Positions 6,734 to 24,316 of a stretch of 64,000 bases of DNA are shown one piece after another. The notes under the pieces were generated by a model, which was not told where the DNA came from, ran no database searches, and saw nothing but the letters and a program-made list of their open reading frames with translations. How positions within the stretch are numbered: the first letter of the stretch is position 1; every line of letters starts with the position of its first letter. The translations under genes were made by a program, and so were the position numbers. Origin of the DNA: Fibrobacteria bacterium (GTDB lineage Bacteria > Fibrobacterota > Fibrobacteria > UBA11236); assembly GCA_017881725.1 (NCBI GenBank), contig JADGQO010000073.1, positions 1 through 64,000 of the forward strand, given 5' to 3'.

Positions 6734-6920
6734 CTAGTGTCTCGACTCCAAAATTTCGAAACGAAGGCGGCGAGGAATGGGGGTTCAGGGCAAGGCCCCA
6801 GCAAGGCTGGGGTACGCGCGCCGACGCCGGAATAGCGGGACTATTCCAAGGAGGCGCAACGCAGCCCTGGGCCCCCAGGCCCGGCGAAAGTGTTTCGAAA
6901 TTTTGGAGTCGAGACACTAG
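6734..6920. mobile_element. MITE-like element copy 1 (187 bp), 29-bp perfect terminal inverted repeats
   Basis: CTAGTGTCTCGACTCCAAAATTTCGAAAC at the left end and GTTTCGAAATTTTGGAGTCGAGACACTAG at the right end; near-identical interior to 24151-24316 in opposite orientation. Confidence 0.88.
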
Positions 6921-7922: not shown

Positions 7923-8660
7923 TCAGGTCCTGCGCGGCTTCACGCACAATCCACACGTATTTTTGAAACGGATTCGCAACGCCGATTCCGGGCTCGAAAT
8001 TAACACCCGCAGGGTTTCATCGCCATGGGAATCCAGCGCCGCTCCCCCGCCGTTTTCCGGTTGCCATTGCGCGCCCTCGGACTCCGCCAAGGGCGAGTAA
8101 ACCTTGAAGGCGGATCCTTTCCCAACCTCGCTCGTGACGGTGATATGTCCGCCGCTTTGCTTCAAGAAGCCATAGACCATGGACAGCCCCAGCCCCGTGC
8201 CGTTGTCGAACACCGACATTTCCGCATACCGGCCCGGCTTCACGGATAAATCCTTTTCCATCGTCAGCAAACCGGGCGAATCCACGTCCAGGTCGCGGAC
8301 GGCCGTTTGCACCGTGATGCGGTCGCCGTCGGACATGGAGTCCTTGGCATTGACCACCAGGTTCATCAACACCTGATCCAGTTGACCTGGATCCACCTTG
8401 ACCAGGCCCCCCCCTCGCCCAGGACGTTTTGCAATTCGATATTATCGCCGATAAGGCGTCGCAGCATATTGGCCATGTTTTCCAGCGGTACGATTTACGG
8501 CGAATCAGGGGAAATCGTGGACTCCACTACGCGGATTTTGCCAGGCGGCAACGGGAAAGGGAAGGCAGATCATATCCCCGCTTTCCAGAATGGATTCATA
8601 GGCCATGAGTTTGTGCGGCACATCATCCACGATCAAAATCTTAACCGGGGTCTCCCGAAT
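7923..8660 (-). pseudogene. Degenerate response-regulator / histidine-kinase remnant
   Basis: Minus strand carries a receiver start (RETPVKILIVDDVPHKLMAYESILE) at about 8600-8657, then ...MANMLRRLIGDNIELQNVLGEG, a frame change at a run of 8 C (8407-8414 region), then VDPGQLDQVLMNLVVNAKDSM (HK N-box). SVFDNGTGLGLSMVYGFLKQSGGHITVTSEVGKGS fuses the D-N of the G1 region directly to the G2 box. Confidence 0.75.
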
Positions 8661-8991: not shown

Positions 8992-9693
8992 GTGCAGAAC
9001 AACCGCATACTTGCCATTCTTATTGATGTGTTGAACCGTCTCGCTCGGGAGAATCCGTCTTTCCATACCCTACCGGAAAACCTGGAAGCCTCTACCACTC
9101 TGGATGAATCCCACATCTCTGACACCAATATCGGAGAACTGGCCCAAGCCCTGCGCCAGCGCTTCGGCGGCATCGCGCTGAATGTCGAACTCATGTACCG
9201 GCTGCAGAAAACTTTCGCCGGCACGTCCATGGACATGGGCTATTACAAAACCTTGGGCGATATCGCCCGGCATATCCAAACCAGCCTCCAACACGGCGTC
9301 AAGAACCCCGTCGTTGTCTATGTGGACGATGAAGAGGAAAACCTCTTTATCTTTCGCCGCCAATTCGGGAAGCGTTGCAACTTGCGCACCTTCACCGATC
9401 CGCGGGAAGCCCTGGCCTTCATTTCGGAAACCCCCGATGTCGTACTGGTCCTGACCGATGAATCGATGCCCGCGCTCTCCGGCAACGCGCTCTGCGACGC
9501 CGTGCATGAAAGCAAGCCTTTCCTGAAGTTCGTCCTCATCACGGGCAACCCCGGTGGGGATCAAAACCTTGTGCATAAGTCCCTGCGCCAAGGCCGATTC
9601 TACGATTTCATCAACAAGCCCTTGGACTTCGCGGGCAAAGGCGAAGAGTATTTCACGATCATCAACAAAGTACTGACCGGGGAGTTCTTCTAA
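8992..9693 (+). CDS. ACP-like domain + response-regulator receiver hybrid, copy A (GTG start)
   Basis: C-terminal REC: VVVYVDDEEENLFIFRRQFG...VVLVLTDESMPALSG...FVLITGNP...DFINKPLD (DD, phosphoacceptor D, T, K all present). N-terminal about 100 aa has an ACP-like helix pattern (TLDESHISDTNIGELAQALRQRFG...KTLGDIARHI). Confidence 0.8.
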   Translation: MQNNRILAILIDVLNRLARENPSFHTLPENLEASTTLDESHISDTNIGELAQALRQRFGGIALNVELMYRLQKTFAGTSMDMGYYKTLGDIARHIQTSLQHGVKNPVVVYVDDEEENLFIFRRQFGKRCNLRTFTDPREALAFISETPDVVLVLTDESMPALSGNALCDAVHESKPFLKFVLITGNPGGDQNLVHKSLRQGRFYDFINKPLDFAGKGEEYFTIINKVLTGEFF

Positions 9694-9764: not shown

Positions 9765-10973
9765 ATGACCGTAGTTATTCCAAAAAGCAATCCCAACCAC
9801 CCCGAGTGGTTCGAATCCTACAAGGAAGAGTACCTGAAGCGTTGGCGGGCCTATGAGCCTTTTCCCTTCGATCAGCCCTCGGATACGCACAATTACCTGA
9901 GCCTGCACCAGAACGATTATCTCCGCCTAAGCGACCATCCGGAGGTGATCAGGGCCAAGAACGAAGCCAACGAATCCACCGGGAGCGGCCCGATGGCGTC
10001 CATCATCTACGGCGGGGATACGGGACAACACCAGAAATATCGGAGCACCCTCCAGGAGGTCATGAAAACCGGGGACGTCATGCTGACAACCGCAGGATGG
10101 ACGGCAAATGTCGGCATCGTGGAATCGGTGGCGCTGCCCGACATGCCCATCTATCTCGACTACCAGGCGCACGCTTCGCTGTGGGACGGGGCGCGGCTTT
10201 CCGGAGGAAAAATCGTACCCGTGCGGCATAACGACGCGGACCACCTGGAGAAACGGATCAAGCGATCCGGCGCGGGTGTGGTCTGCATCGATGCATTCTA
10301 TAGTACCGATGGGAGCGTTCCGGATTTGGAACGTTATGTTCAGATCTGCGAGGAAAACGATTGCTTGCTGATCCTGGACGAAGCGCATTCTTTCGGCATG
10401 ATTGGCCCCAATGGAGGCGGCTTGGCCGTTCATCTCGGGCTGGAAAACCGGATCCCGCTGCGCACGGTTTCCATGAGCAAGGCCCTCGGTGGGAACGGCG
10501 GATTCATCGCCGCATCGGAAGAACTGGTTTGGTTTCTAAAGCACCGATCCAGACCAGTCATTTTCAGTTCCAGCCCCTCACCCGCCGGGTCGGCCGGCGC
10601 GAACGCCGCGATGAAGGTCGCCCTGCGCGAGCCCGAACGCGCCGAAAATTGCCTTCGCATGGCGGCTTTGCTCCGGACGCTGCTTCTCGAACGGGGCATC
10701 GATCCGGGAACCAGCAACAGCCAAATCATCTCGATTTATTTCGACCAGGATCCCTTGGCCGCCAAATTCTATGGCTTGATGAGAAAGCACGGCATCCTGG
10801 TCTCCGTATTCACGGCGCCGGCTGTGCCGCGGGATACCAGCTTGGCCCGGTATTCGATTCACTGCGAAGTGACCGCCGCAGACATGGAACGGGTAGCCAA
10901 TGCGACGGCTGAGGTGGTCGCTAAAATGGCCGTCCAGGTTAAACCGCCATTTTCTTTCGTTGAAAAAACATGA
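9765..10973 (+). CDS. CqsA/LqsA-like alpha-oxoamine synthase (PLP-dependent; candidate CAI-1/LAI-1-type autoinducer synthase)
   Basis: HNYLSLHQNDYLRLSDHPEVI, LTTAGWTANVGIVESVALPDMPIYLDYQAHASLWDGARLSGGKIVPVRHNDADHLEKRI, CIDAFYSTDGSVPDL, LDEAHSFGMIGPNGGGL, VSMSKALGG (PLP lysine). The pattern matches CqsA as remembered (QSNDYLALANHP..., SQSGWNANVGLLQ..., DFFAHMSLWEGAR..., DESHSLGTHGPNGAGL). Confidence 0.85.
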   Translation: MTVVIPKSNPNHPEWFESYKEEYLKRWRAYEPFPFDQPSDTHNYLSLHQNDYLRLSDHPEVIRAKNEANESTGSGPMASIIYGGDTGQHQKYRSTLQEVMKTGDVMLTTAGWTANVGIVESVALPDMPIYLDYQAHASLWDGARLSGGKIVPVRHNDADHLEKRIKRSGAGVVCIDAFYSTDGSVPDLERYVQICEENDCLLILDEAHSFGMIGPNGGGLAVHLGLENRIPLRTVSMSKALGGNGGFIAASEELVWFLKHRSRPVIFSSSPSPAGSAGANAAMKVALREPERAENCLRMAALLRTLLLERGIDPGTSNSQIISIYFDQDPLAAKFYGLMRKHGILVSVFTAPAVPRDTSLARYSIHCEVTAADMERVANATAEVVAKMAVQVKPPFSFVEKT

Positions 10974-11025: not shown

Positions 11026-11700
11026 ATGAACAGCATGCAAGCATATGAAATCCTGAAAGAAATAGTCCAATCTATGGCCCTGCGCGGGGAACACGTTGGA
11101 CCCTTGTCGCCAGAGCCAAACCCTGACTTACCTTTGGAAAGTTCCGGAATTGATCTCATCGCATTTTCCGATATTACCGAAGATCTCAAGCAAAGATTCC
11201 AAGGCAAAGACTTTCATTTGGACCAGTACCTGGTTCCCGATGAATTCCACTACTTGACGATGGGAAAGCTCCTTTCCCAACTTGCGAGCGCCCTTCGCAC
11301 AACGGTGCAGAATCCCCAAGTCGTCTATGTGGATGATGAAGAGGAAAACCTTTTCATCTTCAAACGCAAATTCGGGAATAAGCTGAACCTCAAGACTTTC
11401 GTGGATCCCCTCGCAGCTCTCGAGTACATCAAGGCCGAGGATTCGGTCACGCTTGTCATCACGGACGAGGTGATGCCGAAAATGGGCGGCAATGCGCTTT
11501 GCGATGCCGTCCACAAAGCCAAACCGATGCTCAAGTTCATCCTCATCACGGGCAACCCGAACAGTGATGGCGAGCTTTTACACCATACTCTCCGGCAAAA
11601 CAGGTTTTATGAATTCATCAATAAACCATTGGACTTGGCAGGCAAAGGTGAAGAGTATTTCGCACTCATAAACAAGGTATTAACCGGGGACTTTTTCTAA
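11026..11700 (+). CDS. ACP-like domain + response-regulator receiver hybrid, copy B
   Basis: ATG at 11026 preceded by GGAGGAG (11012-11018). N-terminal LPLESSGIDLIAFSDITEDLKQRFQG (ACP-like, Ser replaced by Leu); C-terminal VVYVDDEEENLFIFKRKFG...LVITDEVMPKMGG...ILITGNP...EFINKPLD. Confidence 0.82.
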   Translation: MNSMQAYEILKEIVQSMALRGEHVGPLSPEPNPDLPLESSGIDLIAFSDITEDLKQRFQGKDFHLDQYLVPDEFHYLTMGKLLSQLASALRTTVQNPQVVYVDDEEENLFIFKRKFGNKLNLKTFVDPLAALEYIKAEDSVTLVITDEVMPKMGGNALCDAVHKAKPMLKFILITGNPNSDGELLHHTLRQNRFYEFINKPLDLAGKGEEYFALINKVLTGDFF

Positions 11701-11726
11701 ACCATGAGGACGAGGGGGATATCTAA

Positions 11727-11950
11727 CCGGAGGATATTACCCATCAAATCAGCCGGTTCTAGGCGATGGGCAGGGAGGAACCCTTCACCTGAACCAGATC
11801 GATCCAACGGTAGTTCCCGAAGTCCGGCGGCAACTCCTTGATGACGTCCTCGGTGACCACCACCTCAACCGCTTTTTGTTTTTCCTCATCCGGTTTAGCC
11901 AGTGCGACCTTAGCTGCGGTAATCCGAATGTGGAAACTTTCGAGTACATG
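11727..11950 (-). pseudogene. Remnant of a second copy of the adjacent class III cyclase gene with internal deletions
   Basis: 11727-11771 matches 13231-13275 (2 mismatches by eye); 11773-11866 matches 13437-13530 (7 mismatches of 94 by eye). The minus-strand peptide ESFHIRITAAKVALAKPDEEKQKAVEVVVTEDVIKELPPDFGNYRWIDLVQVKGSS aligns to two separated segments of the 13132-14646 protein (EITHNKIIAVQMALSKSENEKTQAIE and VVVTEDVIKELPPDFGNYRWIDLVQVKGSS). Confidence 0.85.
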
Positions 11951-11951
11951 C

Positions 11952-12359
11952 ATGACTGAGGCGGAAACAATTCCCCCGGCCGACGCGGCCGCGACTTTGG
12001 CCGCCTTGGATGAAATCGGGACCCATCCGGAAGTCATGCAGGAACTCAAGAAGAAAACCGAATACTTCAGGAGAAAACTTCTCGATTTGGGATTTGATTT
12101 GGGCAATAGCAATAGCGCAATCGTTCCGGTTTATATTCTAAATTTTGAGACATTGCTGCAATTTCCCCGCGATCTCTACTTGGAAGGAATATTTTCCGTC
12201 TCCGTGGCCTTTCCGGCGGTTAAAATTGATGAGGGCCGATGCCGATTCACGGTGAACCAATCGCATACTTTCGCGCAAATCGAGACGACCGTTTCGGTCC
12301 TGGAAAAATTGGGGAAACAACACGGGCTTATCCATAATCGGGCTGGAGTAGAAAAATGA
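11952..12359 (+). pseudogene. C-terminal remnant of an alpha-oxoamine synthase (second synthase copy)
   Basis: MTEAETIPPADAAATLAALDEIGTHPEVMQELKKKTEYFRRKLLDLGFDLGNSNSAIVPVYILNFETLLQFPRDLYLEGIFSVSVAFPAVKIDEGRCRFTVNQSHTFAQIETTVSVLEKLGKQHGL resembles the AOS small domain; the PLP-binding domain and lysine are absent. Confidence 0.75.
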
Positions 12360-13027
12360 ATATTGAAAGAGTTTATGGAATATTGCGCGATATAACCTTA
12401 GCGATGTCTAAGGTTGACGCAACGATAAAACCGCTACCTGAAAAAATGGTGAGCGACACGCCGTTATCAACGCTGGGCTTGGACATCGTAACCCTTCCGA
12501 AAATAATCGCTAACCTGCAGAGTAGATTCCAAGGACGTGACTTGGGTACCCGGGAAATATTTTTGAACGAAACATTAAACAGGATGGCCATTGGCCAACT
12601 CGTGGAAATACTTGCAGGCTCGTTGCGTACGGAATCTCAAGATGCGATCGTGGTCTACGTGGATGACGAGGAGGAAAACCTTTTCGTGTTCAAGCGGAAG
12701 TTCGGGAAAAAATTGAATCTGGTTACTTTTAGCAAGCCCATCGAAGCGTTGGACTACATTCAAAAAACATCGAATGTCGGCTTGGTAATCACGGATGAAG
12801 TCATGCCGAAAATGACCGGGAACGTCCTTTGCGACGAGGTAAAAAAATCGAAGCCCAACCTGAAATTCATTTTGATTACCGGAAATCCTGATCAAGATGA
12901 CAACCTTCTCTACAATTCCCTCCGACAAAATCGCTTTTATGAATTTTTCCACAAACCCGTGGATTTTGATAAAGAGGGAGAACAGTATTTGAATATGATT
13001 CAAGGCCTATTGGATTTTGAATGGTAA
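12356..13027 (+). CDS. ACP-like domain + response-regulator receiver hybrid, copy C
   Basis: N-terminal DTPLSTLGLDIVTLPKIIANLQSRFQGRDL...AIGQLVEILAG (ACP-like, Ser replaced by Ile); C-terminal IVVYVDDEEENLFVFKRKFGKKLNL...LVITDEVMPKMTG...ILITGNP...EFFHKPVD. ATGA overlap with the synthase remnant. Confidence 0.82.
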   Translation: MNIERVYGILRDITLAMSKVDATIKPLPEKMVSDTPLSTLGLDIVTLPKIIANLQSRFQGRDLGTREIFLNETLNRMAIGQLVEILAGSLRTESQDAIVVYVDDEEENLFVFKRKFGKKLNLVTFSKPIEALDYIQKTSNVGLVITDEVMPKMTGNVLCDEVKKSKPNLKFILITGNPDQDDNLLYNSLRQNRFYEFFHKPVDFDKEGEQYLNMIQGLLDFEW

Positions 13028-13113: not shown

Positions 13114-13132
13114 AGCCGGAGGGTCTCCGGCT
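13114..13132. terminator. Hairpin between convergent genes, possible terminator
   Basis: AGCCGGAG GGT CTCCGGCT, perfect 8-bp stem between ACP-REC copy C and the cyclase; only a weak T-tract follows. Confidence 0.45.
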
Positions 13133-14646
13133 CACTTTTCATAGAAAATGTGCACGCCTTCCCAGCGCTCGATTTGTTCCCAAGCACCCGCAGAGTCGTT
13201 AATCCAGACGTCACAATGCCGGATATAGTACCGGAGGATATTGTCCATCAAATCAGCCGGTTCTAGGCGATGGGCCGGGACTTTTTCCAACATGGCCCGG
13301 AAAAGTCGGGACGCATCCTTGAAGCCCTTCTGGAAATAAATAGCCAAAGCCTTTTCCAGCAATTCGCGAGTTTCATTTTTATAACGTCGGACTTCCTCGG
13401 GCTGATGTCCGTAGATTTCATAGAGCTTAAGGTGTCGGGAGGAACCCTTCACCTGGACTAAATCAATCCAACGATAATTCCCGAAGTCCGGCGGCAACTC
13501 CTTGATGACGTCCTCAGTGACCACCACCTCCAGGTTGTACATCTTGGTCTTGGATTCCAGGCGCGCGGCGATGTTGACCGCCTCTCCGATTACGGTGCGG
13601 TCCAGCTTCTCGAAGGATCCGAAATTGCCGACCATCACCTCGCCCTTGGCGATGCCGATGCCGTTGCGGATCATGGTGGCCCCGCCCTTGTACATGACGT
13701 TGTTGAAACGCTGCAATTCCAGGCGCATCTCGATGGCCGCACGCACCGCGCCCGCTCCCGTGGGGAACACGCCCATCACGCAATCGCCCATGATCTTGTC
13801 CACCTCCCCGCCATGGCGCATGATGGGGTGGGTCATCAAGGTGAAATACTGGTTCAAAAAGGTTTGCTTTTCATACGGACTGAGCACCTCGGTCAGGTGC
13901 GTGAAATCGCGGATGTCGCAGAACATGATGGAAAGGTTCTGGATCACCGGCGGCGTGGCGGAAGGGTCGACGCCGGCATGGATTTCCTGGACCAGGGAGG
14001 GGCGGACATACACACGGAGCAAGTCGTCGCGCTTGCGCAGTTCGGCATAATTACGGGCCGTTTCGATGGCTTGGGTTTTTTCGTTTTCGGATTTGGAAAG
14101 CGCCATCTGGACGGCGATGATTTTGTTGTGTGTGATTTCCATCGTCAACTTCAACACGCTTGCGACAAACCCACCGAAAAATGAGACTACATGGGCCTTG
14201 ATGGATTCTTCGATCAAAGGAAGTCCATGCGGGTGGGACCGGAGAAAGGCAAAAGACGCGAGACAGACCGCGCCGGGATAAAGAAAAATCAAAAAAACCG
14301 GTTTGGCGGTGAATCCGTATCCAAACCCGGCAAACACCATGGACGCCCACCAATAAAGGTTTCCGCCGTTCATTAGGAAGTAATAGGTGAAGAAGGCGGG
14401 AAAGGTAAGATTTACCAGCTCGTAGTAAAATTTCTGGTAGCCATTGAGTTCTTTTTCCCGAGGGAAAAAAATCAAGGCGAGGTACAACAATGCCACGCCG
14501 CCGCGAATATACACGGACTCCCAATAGCCCAGGCCGAACTTTAGGAAAAGGAAATATACCGGATGGGCGAGGCAACCGATGAATCCGAGAACCCGAATCG
14601 ATTTTTGGACGAATCGATAATCAAGGTTGAAAATTATTTTAAACAA
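13132..14646 (-). CDS. Membrane class III adenylate/guanylate cyclase with CqsS-like six-helix N-terminal anchor
   Basis: Catalytic motifs: SIMFCDIRDFTHLTE, DKIMGDCVMGVFP, GIGIAKGEVMVGNFGS, LDRTVIGEAVNIAARLESKT. N-terminus GFIGCLAHPVYFLFLKFGLGYWESVYIRGGVALLYLALIFF...YQKFYYELVNLTFPAFFTYYFLMNGGNLYWWASMV is similar to the CqsS sensor domain as remembered. Confidence 0.88.
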   Translation of the reverse strand: MFKIIFNLDYRFVQKSIRVLGFIGCLAHPVYFLFLKFGLGYWESVYIRGGVALLYLALIFFPREKELNGYQKFYYELVNLTFPAFFTYYFLMNGGNLYWWASMVFAGFGYGFTAKPVFLIFLYPGAVCLASFAFLRSHPHGLPLIEESIKAHVVSFFGGFVASVLKLTMEITHNKIIAVQMALSKSENEKTQAIETARNYAELRKRDDLLRVYVRPSLVQEIHAGVDPSATPPVIQNLSIMFCDIRDFTHLTEVLSPYEKQTFLNQYFTLMTHPIMRHGGEVDKIMGDCVMGVFPTGAGAVRAAIEMRLELQRFNNVMYKGGATMIRNGIGIAKGEVMVGNFGSFEKLDRTVIGEAVNIAARLESKTKMYNLEVVVTEDVIKELPPDFGNYRWIDLVQVKGSSRHLKLYEIYGHQPEEVRRYKNETRELLEKALAIYFQKGFKDASRLFRAMLEKVPAHRLEPADLMDNILRYYIRHCDVWINDSAGAWEQIERWEGVHIFYEK

Positions 14647-14922: not shown

Positions 14923-16743
14923 ATGAAACAAAAAATCATCCTTCCCGCGGAAACGACGACCGGTGATTGGAAACCGATCCTTCCAAACAAGGAGGCCGGC
15001 TTCACACTCTCTCCGGACGGAGCTTCGAAATCCGATCCTAAAAAGTTCGAGGTCGGGAAATTCAAATTCCATGGGCTCTTTGAGAATCGGACGCAAGAAC
15101 GCATTTCGCAACGCGAGTTGGGACTGGTCCAAATGTCAATGCGCCAGCCCGGGCGGGAGGAATGGATCGCCGTCCGGCTCTGGGATTTCACGTCCATCTC
15201 TTTCGGCGTACAGTTTTTGCCGCCACAATCCATCCAGGATCCCGCCGGTTTCCAACGCCCGGAAGCCGGCTCCCCAACCGAGCCGGCCGACGAACGTGAC
15301 CGATTGGAATTAGGTTCCCTCCCCGCCGATTCCGGCAAGGTACAGGTACAATGCGGCGACCAAGTCGAAATCCGCATCCGGATTACCCATCACGCGGAAT
15401 TCCAGATTTGGTGCGAAGTCAAGAATACCGTGGCCTGGAAAGACGGCGTCAAAATCGGTTTGCGACGGCTGGATATCGCCTTCCCGCAAAGCGTGAACAA
15501 GGAAAGGCGCGAAAATTTCCGACTGCCCGTGGCGCCGGCTCTGGCCTTGAACGCCCGCTTAAGTCATCCTTTCCTGTTCGGCCAATGGAGTCTCATGCAG
15601 GTTTCCGACGTGAACCACAGCATGGGACTCAGTTTCGACTGTCGCGATCCGTCCATCCTGGTTTTCGAGGATATGGAGTTGGACATCCATTTCGAGTTGC
15701 CCAACCTGCGTCAAGTCGCAATGTCCGCGCGCGTGGCCTGGGTGCACGCGACGGAGGCTAATCACGTGAAGTTCGGCGTGGCTTGCCTCGATATGCCCTG
15801 GGCGTTACATAACGGCATCTGTGACTTTTTGTTGTTCTCGCGCCATTGGACTCCCCTGCGCCTGCGCGAGGCGGGTTTCCGCGCGCGACGAGTAAAAAAC
15901 CGCCTGCGTTTCCGCACGGTTAAAAACATGGGCGATTACGCCGAAGTTCTTTATCTCCGCCGCGACGCTTACGTTGGCGCCGGCAAGAAATCCGCCGATA
16001 CCAAACCCGAGGAAATGGCCGGCTCGCTGGACGGCTGCAGCCGAATCCTCATGGCCCATCACCATAACGACTTAGTCGGCAGTCTGACGTTTACCTTTCC
16101 GCCCACGGAAGATACGGTGTTGGACAGCCAGGCCGGTTTTCCCGGAAAAAAATATCCCGTCGCTTTGCCGCCCAAAGCCAATCTCATCGAAGTATCGCGC
16201 CTTTGCATCCATGGCGAATACCGGAATACCGACTTGTTGCAAGGCCTGTTCGAGCACGGCATCAAGCATTTCCTCATGTCGGATCGCCATTGGCTCCTGA
16301 CCTCGGCGGTGGAAGGATTGCTGCCCGCGTATTTGCGAATAGGGTTCGTACGGCTCAAGGCCAGTTACAGGCATCCGGGCCTGAATCACCAGGAACATCA
16401 TTTGATCCTGGCCCACAGGAACACGTTCCTATGGGGACAGGGCATGAACCTTATGGTTTGGAATACGTTATTCTCCGACGTGATCGCCTATATGCTGGAC
16501 CGGAAATTAATCGAGGTGAATGGTTTGGAGCGCGCAATCATCAGATCCAAGTTGCTGCTCAGGCCGGTCTCTCGCTTGTTCGTGGAACGCCGCGCGCAAT
16601 CCGCTTTCCAAGCGCATTTGAAGTCGCTGAGGGAATCGTTCCGACATCGTCCCGGGAAAGAAACCGTTCCCGAAGCGGAGATGTTACCCACTCCGCTGCG
16701 CGCCCCCTCAACCCCCGAGTCCCCGCGCGATTCCTCCGACTAG
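14923..16743 (+). CDS. PilZ-domain protein fused to FeeM-like (GNAT-fold) N-acyltransferase domain
   Basis: RRENFRLPV plus SDVNHSMGLSF fit PilZ-type RxxxR and D/NxSxxG motifs; C-terminal LRFRTVKNMGDYAEVLYLRRDAYV...LVGSLTF...NLIEVSRLCIHGEYRNTDLLQGLFEHGIKHFL...YLRIGFVRL resembles FeeM/exosortase-associated acyltransferases. Confidence 0.6.
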   Translation: MKQKIILPAETTTGDWKPILPNKEAGFTLSPDGASKSDPKKFEVGKFKFHGLFENRTQERISQRELGLVQMSMRQPGREEWIAVRLWDFTSISFGVQFLPPQSIQDPAGFQRPEAGSPTEPADERDRLELGSLPADSGKVQVQCGDQVEIRIRITHHAEFQIWCEVKNTVAWKDGVKIGLRRLDIAFPQSVNKERRENFRLPVAPALALNARLSHPFLFGQWSLMQVSDVNHSMGLSFDCRDPSILVFEDMELDIHFELPNLRQVAMSARVAWVHATEANHVKFGVACLDMPWALHNGICDFLLFSRHWTPLRLREAGFRARRVKNRLRFRTVKNMGDYAEVLYLRRDAYVGAGKKSADTKPEEMAGSLDGCSRILMAHHHNDLVGSLTFTFPPTEDTVLDSQAGFPGKKYPVALPPKANLIEVSRLCIHGEYRNTDLLQGLFEHGIKHFLMSDRHWLLTSAVEGLLPAYLRIGFVRLKASYRHPGLNHQEHHLILAHRNTFLWGQGMNLMVWNTLFSDVIAYMLDRKLIEVNGLERAIIRSKLLLRPVSRLFVERRAQSAFQAHLKSLRESFRHRPGKETVPEAEMLPTPLRAPSTPESPRDSSD

Positions 16744-24150: not shown

Positions 24151-24316
24151 CTAGTGTCTCGACTCCAAAATTTCGAAACACTTTCGCCGGGCCTGGGGGC
24201 CCAGAGCTGCGTTGCGCCTCCTTGGAATAGTCCCGCTATTCCGGCGTCGGCGCGCCTTGCTCTGAACCCCCATTCCTCGCCGCCTTCGTTTCGAAATTTT
24301 GGAGTCGAGACACTAG
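24151..24316. mobile_element. MITE-like element copy 2 (166 bp), inverted relative to copy 1
   Basis: Same 29-bp terminal inverted repeats; interior matches copy 1 except for a 21-nt indel and a few substitutions; lies between convergent pyc and the GH5 gene. Confidence 0.88.

Follow-up and report, generated by a model that had tools for sequence, protein, structure and literature searches.

A probable natural CqsS-type receptor-adenylate cyclase encoded near a CqsA-clade synthase in an uncultured Fibrobacterota bacterium

It has long been asked whether the membrane adenylate cyclases use their six-helix anchors as receptors, and the key support for the idea has so far been synthetic. In the synthetic CqsS-Rv1625c chimera of Beltz, Bassler and Schultz (2016; PMC4821796), which is a dimer, CAI-1 activates the cyclase with an EC50 of 400 nM; CAI-1-responsive CqsS-cyclase chimeras (PMC4821796) have since been reviewed (PMC12414865). 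A 2016 eLife analysis found that natural CqsS-type domains cluster exclusively with histidine kinases and separately from every cyclase anchor, and a 2025 review mentions CqsS-cyclases as synthetic constructs only. A search of open-licence papers likewise found no natural CqsS-cyclase. The gene described here lies in a 64,000-nucleotide stretch of DNA from an uncultured Fibrobacterota bacterium (the window), and raises the question of whether the laboratory design also exists in nature. The answer given below is that the gene probably encodes a natural CqsS-type receptor-cyclase, a kind of protein previously described, in the literature searched, as a laboratory construct only.

The cyclase gene occupies exactly the coordinates given by the first-pass annotation, which did not state that it lies on the minus strand (14646 to 13132), and the open reading frame listing gives a product of 504 aa. 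The start codon is TTG, with the sequence GAGGG eight bases 5' of it, and two homologues (L005 and L007) have ATG at the matching position. The gene and the parts of its product are:

13132..14646, minus strand: CqsS-type receptor / class III adenylate cyclase, 504 aa, TTG start (ORF; Pfam Guanylate_cyc; homologues within the genus)
14122..14646, minus strand: six-TM anchor, aa 1-175, homologous to the CqsS receptor domain (BLASTP, hhalign, reciprocal profile, joint alignment, AlphaFold2)
14011..14226, minus strand: TM6 continuous with the signalling helix, aa 141-212 (AlphaFold2 secondary structure)
13426..13944, minus strand: catalytic domain, aa 235-407, with class IIIb-type ATP site, K284 and T351 (Pfam, OaPAC alignment, 8-homologue alignment, Foldseek)
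13132..13407, minus strand: conserved helical C-terminal tail, aa 414-504 (homologue alignment A2)

Pfam recognizes a single family in the protein, Guanylate_cyc (E=5.7e-17, residues 235-407), and none in residues 1-230. Because Guanylate_cyc is found alone, with neither a histidine kinase nor a receiver output, the protein is not a CqsS kinase, and the cyclase does stand in for the kinase as output, as the first-pass annotation had proposed. The motifs that it had read as a complete catalytic set (FCDIRDF, VDKIMGDCVMGVF and LDRTVIGEAVNIAARLE) are all present. The metal residues D244 and D288, the substrate residues K284 and T351, and the transition-state residues N358 and R362 are invariant in an alignment of eight Fibrobacterota homologues (full-protein numbering; alignment A2, which counts from residue 2, numbers them one lower), and they agree position by position with OaPAC, a solved photoactivated adenylate cyclase. 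Among solved structures, the protein is closest to two photoactivated adenylate cyclases, OaPAC and bPAC, with E down to 1.5e-32. As read from these alignments, the residue set of a class III adenylate cyclase is complete, and ATP is the likely substrate, a prediction based on the Lys/Thr pair that the cyclase has in common with the aligned OaPAC.

The first-pass annotation had also pointed to two motifs in the anchor, FIGCLAHPVYF and YYELVNLTFPAFFTYYFLMN, both of which are there, and had associated them with CqsS, a relationship that sequence searches now substantiate. The CqsS-type kinases compared were taken from public replicons of Vibrio, Cupriavidus, Paraburkholderia, Tistrella, Rhodanobacter and Polaromonas; the V. 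campbellii CqsS used adjoins CqsA, and the Cupriavidus kinase adjoins a CqsA homologue. A single BLASTP comparison pairs 102 aa of the anchor with Vibrio campbellii CqsS at 27% identity (E=3e-9). When 14 cyclase anchors were aligned by hhalign with 11 CqsS-type kinase anchors, one of the cyclase rows being cropped out of register and one of the kinases coming from Fibrobacterota (G109), the match spanned 130 columns corresponding to TM1-5, with a probability of 99.1%, E=7e-19 and a score of 121. The reversed control scored 13.8, the best of 100 column shuffles 18.7, and the best of 100 block shuffles, which preserve the hydrophobic pattern by shuffling within ten-column blocks, 34.8. A reciprocal search of 168 Fibrobacterota genomes with a profile built from the anchors of eight proteobacterial CqsS-type kinases is independent of both the misregistered row and the G109 kinase, and so supports the homology without either. 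Its nine matches (E 2e-14 to 5e-9) all fall at cyclases related to the window cyclase, the next-best matches having E=0.0017 and weaker; the window cyclase is matched over residues 10-174 (E=1.2e-10) and is the sole match in its own genome. By these comparisons, the six-helix membrane domain is genuinely related to the CqsS receptor.

An AlphaFold2 model based on a seven-sequence alignment has six predicted anchor helices, the sixth extending to residue 212, and a helical linker is present between the anchor and the catalytic domain, where the first-pass annotation had placed one. Confidence in the full-length model is low (pLDDT 63, pTM 0.37), although the anchor is mostly at 73-87. Against the PDB, the profile of the cyclase anchors found only two designed helical proteins (E=2 and 3) and no CqsS-like chain; nor was an Rv1625c/Cya chain among its matches at E<=10, even though 7yzk is in the PDB, and so the anchor is not recognizably of the Rv1625c type. 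The Foldseek matches listed for the full-length model are cyclases, aligned mainly via the catalytic domain because the PDB has no CqsS-like chain and the model is weak. The contrary outcomes named by the first-pass annotation did not materialize: the anchor has no match to a MASE or 7TM family, and the catalytic residues are intact. The protein resembles the Rv1625c/Cya-type adenylate cyclases in having a six-TM anchor and a class III catalytic domain, presumably as a homodimer, but differs from them in its anchor and in being of class IIIb type, Rv1625c being class IIIa (PMC4821796). It has the same design as the CqsS-Rv1625c chimera, with a class III cyclase attached to a 6TM receptor of CqsS type, but is natural, and it differs further in its class IIIb-type catalytic domain, long helical linker and conserved C-terminal tail.

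Mutagenesis of V. cholerae CqsS (reviewed in PMC3376566) has assigned W104 and S107 to the C3 head group of the ligand and F160, F162 and F166 to a gatekeeper function, F162 being essential for the head group, while C170 determines tail length. These residues were placed on V. campbellii CqsS via the published equivalence of V. cholerae C170 and V. campbellii F166 (PMC4821796), and in the joint alignment W104, S107 and F162 correspond to the following residues of the cyclase anchor:

14350-14352, minus strand: W99, equivalent of V. cholerae CqsS W104
14341-14343, minus strand: S102, equivalent of V. cholerae CqsS S107
14176-14178, minus strand: F157, equivalent of V. cholerae CqsS F162

Across the 14 cyclase anchors the Trp is conserved in 11, the Ser in 13 and the Phe in 12, the alignment of F157 with F162 being less certain since it lies in TM6, outside the hhalign block. 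CqsS residues F160, F166 and C170 are replaced by S155, V161 and L165. These three positions are variable among the compared CqsS-type kinases as well, and LqsS retains, of the gatekeeper set, only the equivalent of F162 (PMC3376566). The window protein therefore shares with CqsS and LqsS, the alpha-hydroxyketone receptor histidine kinases of Vibrio and Legionella, a homologous six-TM receptor domain with W104, S107 and F162 kept, but it comes from another phylum, Fibrobacterota, lacks F160, F166 and C170, and has a class III cyclase as output where theirs is a histidine kinase (with a receiver in CqsS).

A further likeness to the CqsS and LqsS systems is a CqsA-clade synthase encoded nearby, which is the strongest piece of genomic context and was absent from the first-pass annotation:

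9765..10973, plus strand: CqsA-clade PLP-dependent alpha-oxoamine synthase, candidate autoinducer synthase (NCBIfam, PDB match, tree)

The gene lies about 2.2 kb past the end of the cyclase gene, on the opposite strand, and the two do not share an operon. The best NCBIfam match of the enzyme is PRK07179 (alpha-hydroxyketone autoinducer synthase) at 299.9 bits, below the 428-bit equivalog cut-off of NF005526 (Vibrio campbellii CqsA scores 696.7), and for this reason it is filed here as CqsA-clade and not as CqsA. Its best PDB match is the CAI-1 synthase CqsA (E=3e-52), ahead of serine palmitoyltransferase (SPT), and a maximum-likelihood tree places it with the CqsA clade at 100/100 support, apart from BioF and Kbl. 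The tree makes the enzyme a member of the CqsA clade, and it keeps the PLP lysine, but it differs from CqsA in belonging to a separate Fibrobacterota sister clade and in its acyl-pocket residues: only four of the nine described for V. cholerae CqsA (H30, V32, F79, F257, I263, F264, C346, P348 and A349; PMC3285556) are identical.

CqsA-clade enzymes were found in four of the 150 genomes sampled (G000, G028, G038 and G109) at E<=1e-60, a threshold at which weaker members could be missed. Another 36 alpha-oxoamine synthase stretches considered as CqsA were rejected, since each was closer to an enzyme other than CqsA, in most cases BioF or Kbl. CqsS-type anchors occur in 10 of 168 Fibrobacterota genomes, including all four with a CqsA-clade enzyme. 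Anchors and CqsA-clade enzymes occupy the identical four of 41 genera, a coincidence of 1/C(41,4)=1e-5 if genera were independent; this figure ignores kinship, as two of the four genera belong to one family. The anchor sits on a cyclase in G028, G038 and G048, and in G028 this cyclase is about 10 kb from the CqsA-clade gene. In G109 a histidine kinase with a receiver and a CqsS-like anchor (locus L025, G109:C268, 291-1982) adjoins two tandem CqsA-clade genes. The two need not go together, however: same-genus relatives that carry the cyclase gave no CqsA-clade match at E<=1e-60. Among 388 genomes of 249 genera there was no further genome with this anchor at E<=1e-6, which leaves room for its presence elsewhere.

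Two other arrangements came to light in this survey. At one locus each in G028 and G038 (L023 and L024), CqsA-clade and receiver genes adjoin two paired histidine kinases, relatives of the one at L008:2600-4756, which suggests a second output branch. Plasmids of Rhodanobacter, Dyella and Polaromonas (L061-L065) carry kinases with CqsS-type anchors, some of them beside helicase or BREX genes, and have no annotated CqsA within about 3 kb on either side.

Comparison of the window with sister genomes has revealed a recurrent gene module around the cyclase. In its standard form it consists of a receiver gene, the cyclase gene, an alpha-oxoamine synthase gene head to head with the cyclase, and a second receiver gene. 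The corresponding features of the window are:

8992..9693, plus strand: receiver protein RR1, with an N-terminal helical domain of about 100 aa, of the type flanking the cyclase in sister loci (Pfam, neighbourhood comparison, AlphaFold2)
11026..11700, plus strand: receiver protein RR2, directly 3' of the CqsA-like gene (Pfam, neighbourhood comparison)
11717..11992, minus strand: duplicate-cyclase remnant (two stretches, 90-93% DNA identity to the intact gene)
11838..12359, plus strand: ORF with the remnant of an SPT-like alpha-oxoamine synthase, to whose C-terminal part it is homologous from about 11860 onwards (Pfam, NCBIfam)
12356..13027, plus strand: receiver protein RR3, its gene converging on that of the intact cyclase (Pfam, neighbourhood comparison)

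The synthase remnant is head to head with the cyclase remnant, and the window thus holds a decayed standard module between RR2 and RR3, with the CqsA-like and receiver genes before it and the intact cyclase gene after it. The synthase partner in the sister genomes is SPT-like (L005/L046, L048 and L050) or of the PRK07505 type (L047). Five of 14 intact cyclase genes, in four sister genomes, are in clusters where an alpha-oxoamine synthase gene adjoins one of them, and the window is a sixth, looser case. Cyclase copies with no adjoining synthase are those at L009, L049, L051 and L052 and those of G028, G038 and G048; the cyclase paralogue on contig C85 stands alone. SPT-type enzymes make long-chain alpha-aminoketones, which are chemically close to amino-CAI-1.

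Receiver proteins with no recognized output domain flank the cyclase in most copies of the module. The N-terminal domain shared by RR1, RR2 and RR3 (about 100 aa, helical, of no known family) also occurs in proteins encoded beside the CqsA-clade genes in G028 and G038. Its AlphaFold2 model is helical, and the Foldseek matches listed are receiver proteins, among which LqsR (6sy9) did not stand out as a relative. A reading of the domain as a carrier protein (ACP) has in its favour the helical model and one weak Pfam PP-binding match (E=0.11) in one of 11 members, but in view of the Foldseek matches it is doubtful. On the other side of the cyclase, and divergent from it, is a gene for a FeeM-like acyltransferase (14923-16743, plus strand; Pfam FeeM E=3.7e-6), a candidate for a second signal synthase; FeeM-like genes are present in multiple copies near related cyclases at L047 and L049. 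Upstream of RR1 there is a C-terminal histidine kinase fragment, apparently a remnant (7923-8396, minus strand). A MITE-like element at 6734-6920 has 29-nt perfect terminal inverted repeats; the genome contains about 10 more copies of it, complete or partial, of which one lies in the window at about 24152-24315.

The comparisons above establish the anchor homology, the intact catalytic residues, the CqsA-clade membership, the gene linkage and the shared genera; the ligand, the direction of regulation and the output of this protein are inferred. The six-helix CqsS-type domain would bind, between its helices and within the membrane, a lipophilic autoinducer of the alpha-hydroxyketone or alpha-aminoketone type, and the continuous TM6-signalling helix would relay the change to a dimeric class III cyclase; these steps are proposed by analogy with the synthetic CqsS-Rv1625c chimera. 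The production of cAMP would then be set directly, with no phosphorelay, and the cAMP would act through some of the cNMP-binding proteins of the genome, in which nine cNMP-binding domain matches were found. The signal in the window genome would most likely be made by the CqsA-clade enzyme at 9765-10973, and in the sister genomes the related cyclases are paired with SPT-like or PRK07505-type alpha-oxoamine synthases. We consider it reasonably probable that this single protein is a natural quorum sensor, controlling cAMP directly in response to an autoinducer that is an alpha-hydroxy- or alpha-aminoketone. The narrower proposal, that the autoinducer is that of the CqsA-clade enzyme and that the locus is a natural one-protein circuit whose anchor has an identifiable ligand and a cognate synthase, is given an even chance. 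Weighing against the quorum-sensor reading are the absence of F160, F166 and C170, the low family score and divergent acyl pocket of the CqsA-like enzyme, the same-genus relatives with a cyclase but no CqsA-clade match, the cyclase copies that stand alone, and the lack of a common operon for the cyclase and the CqsA-like gene.

Alternatively, the anchor might be a CqsS-type receptor that senses another lipophile, such as the product of an SPT-like or FeeM-like enzyme or a membrane lipid, the CqsA-like gene being incidental. The sister loci do have SPT-like or PRK07505-type synthases where the window has the CqsA-like one, FeeM-like genes adjoin the window cyclase and another cyclase, and the tail-length and gatekeeper residues differ from those of CqsS. 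However, the anchor retains W104, S107 and F162 for the head group, and the CqsA clade and the anchors share exactly the same four genera; we judge this explanation unlikely, and it overlaps the autoinducer model, because SPT-type enzymes also make alpha-aminoketones.

That the CqsS-type domain is a membrane anchor and nothing else, with the cyclase constitutive or regulated by the flanking receiver proteins, is a view encouraged by the regular presence of those output-less receivers. It is distinctly improbable, since the polar and aromatic positions held in common with CqsS across two phyla, ligand determinants included, would be unneeded for mere anchoring. Finally, membrane helices are compositionally biased, and a 2016 eLife study of other cyclase anchors was unable to tell remote homology and convergence apart, so that the resemblance to CqsS might be ascribed to chance or to convergence of hydrophobic helices. 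The reversed and shuffled controls fall far under the real hhalign score, and the genome-wide reciprocal search is specific, making this explanation barely credible.

We therefore return to the model in which an autoinducer sets cAMP through the CqsS-type anchor. A natural gene family with the design of the chimera, and with a candidate ligand-making enzyme encoded nearby, makes the receptor question for membrane adenylate cyclases directly testable. A literature search found no report of quorum sensing in Fibrobacterota; the model would extend signalling of the alpha-hydroxyketone type from phosphorelays to cAMP, and to this phylum.
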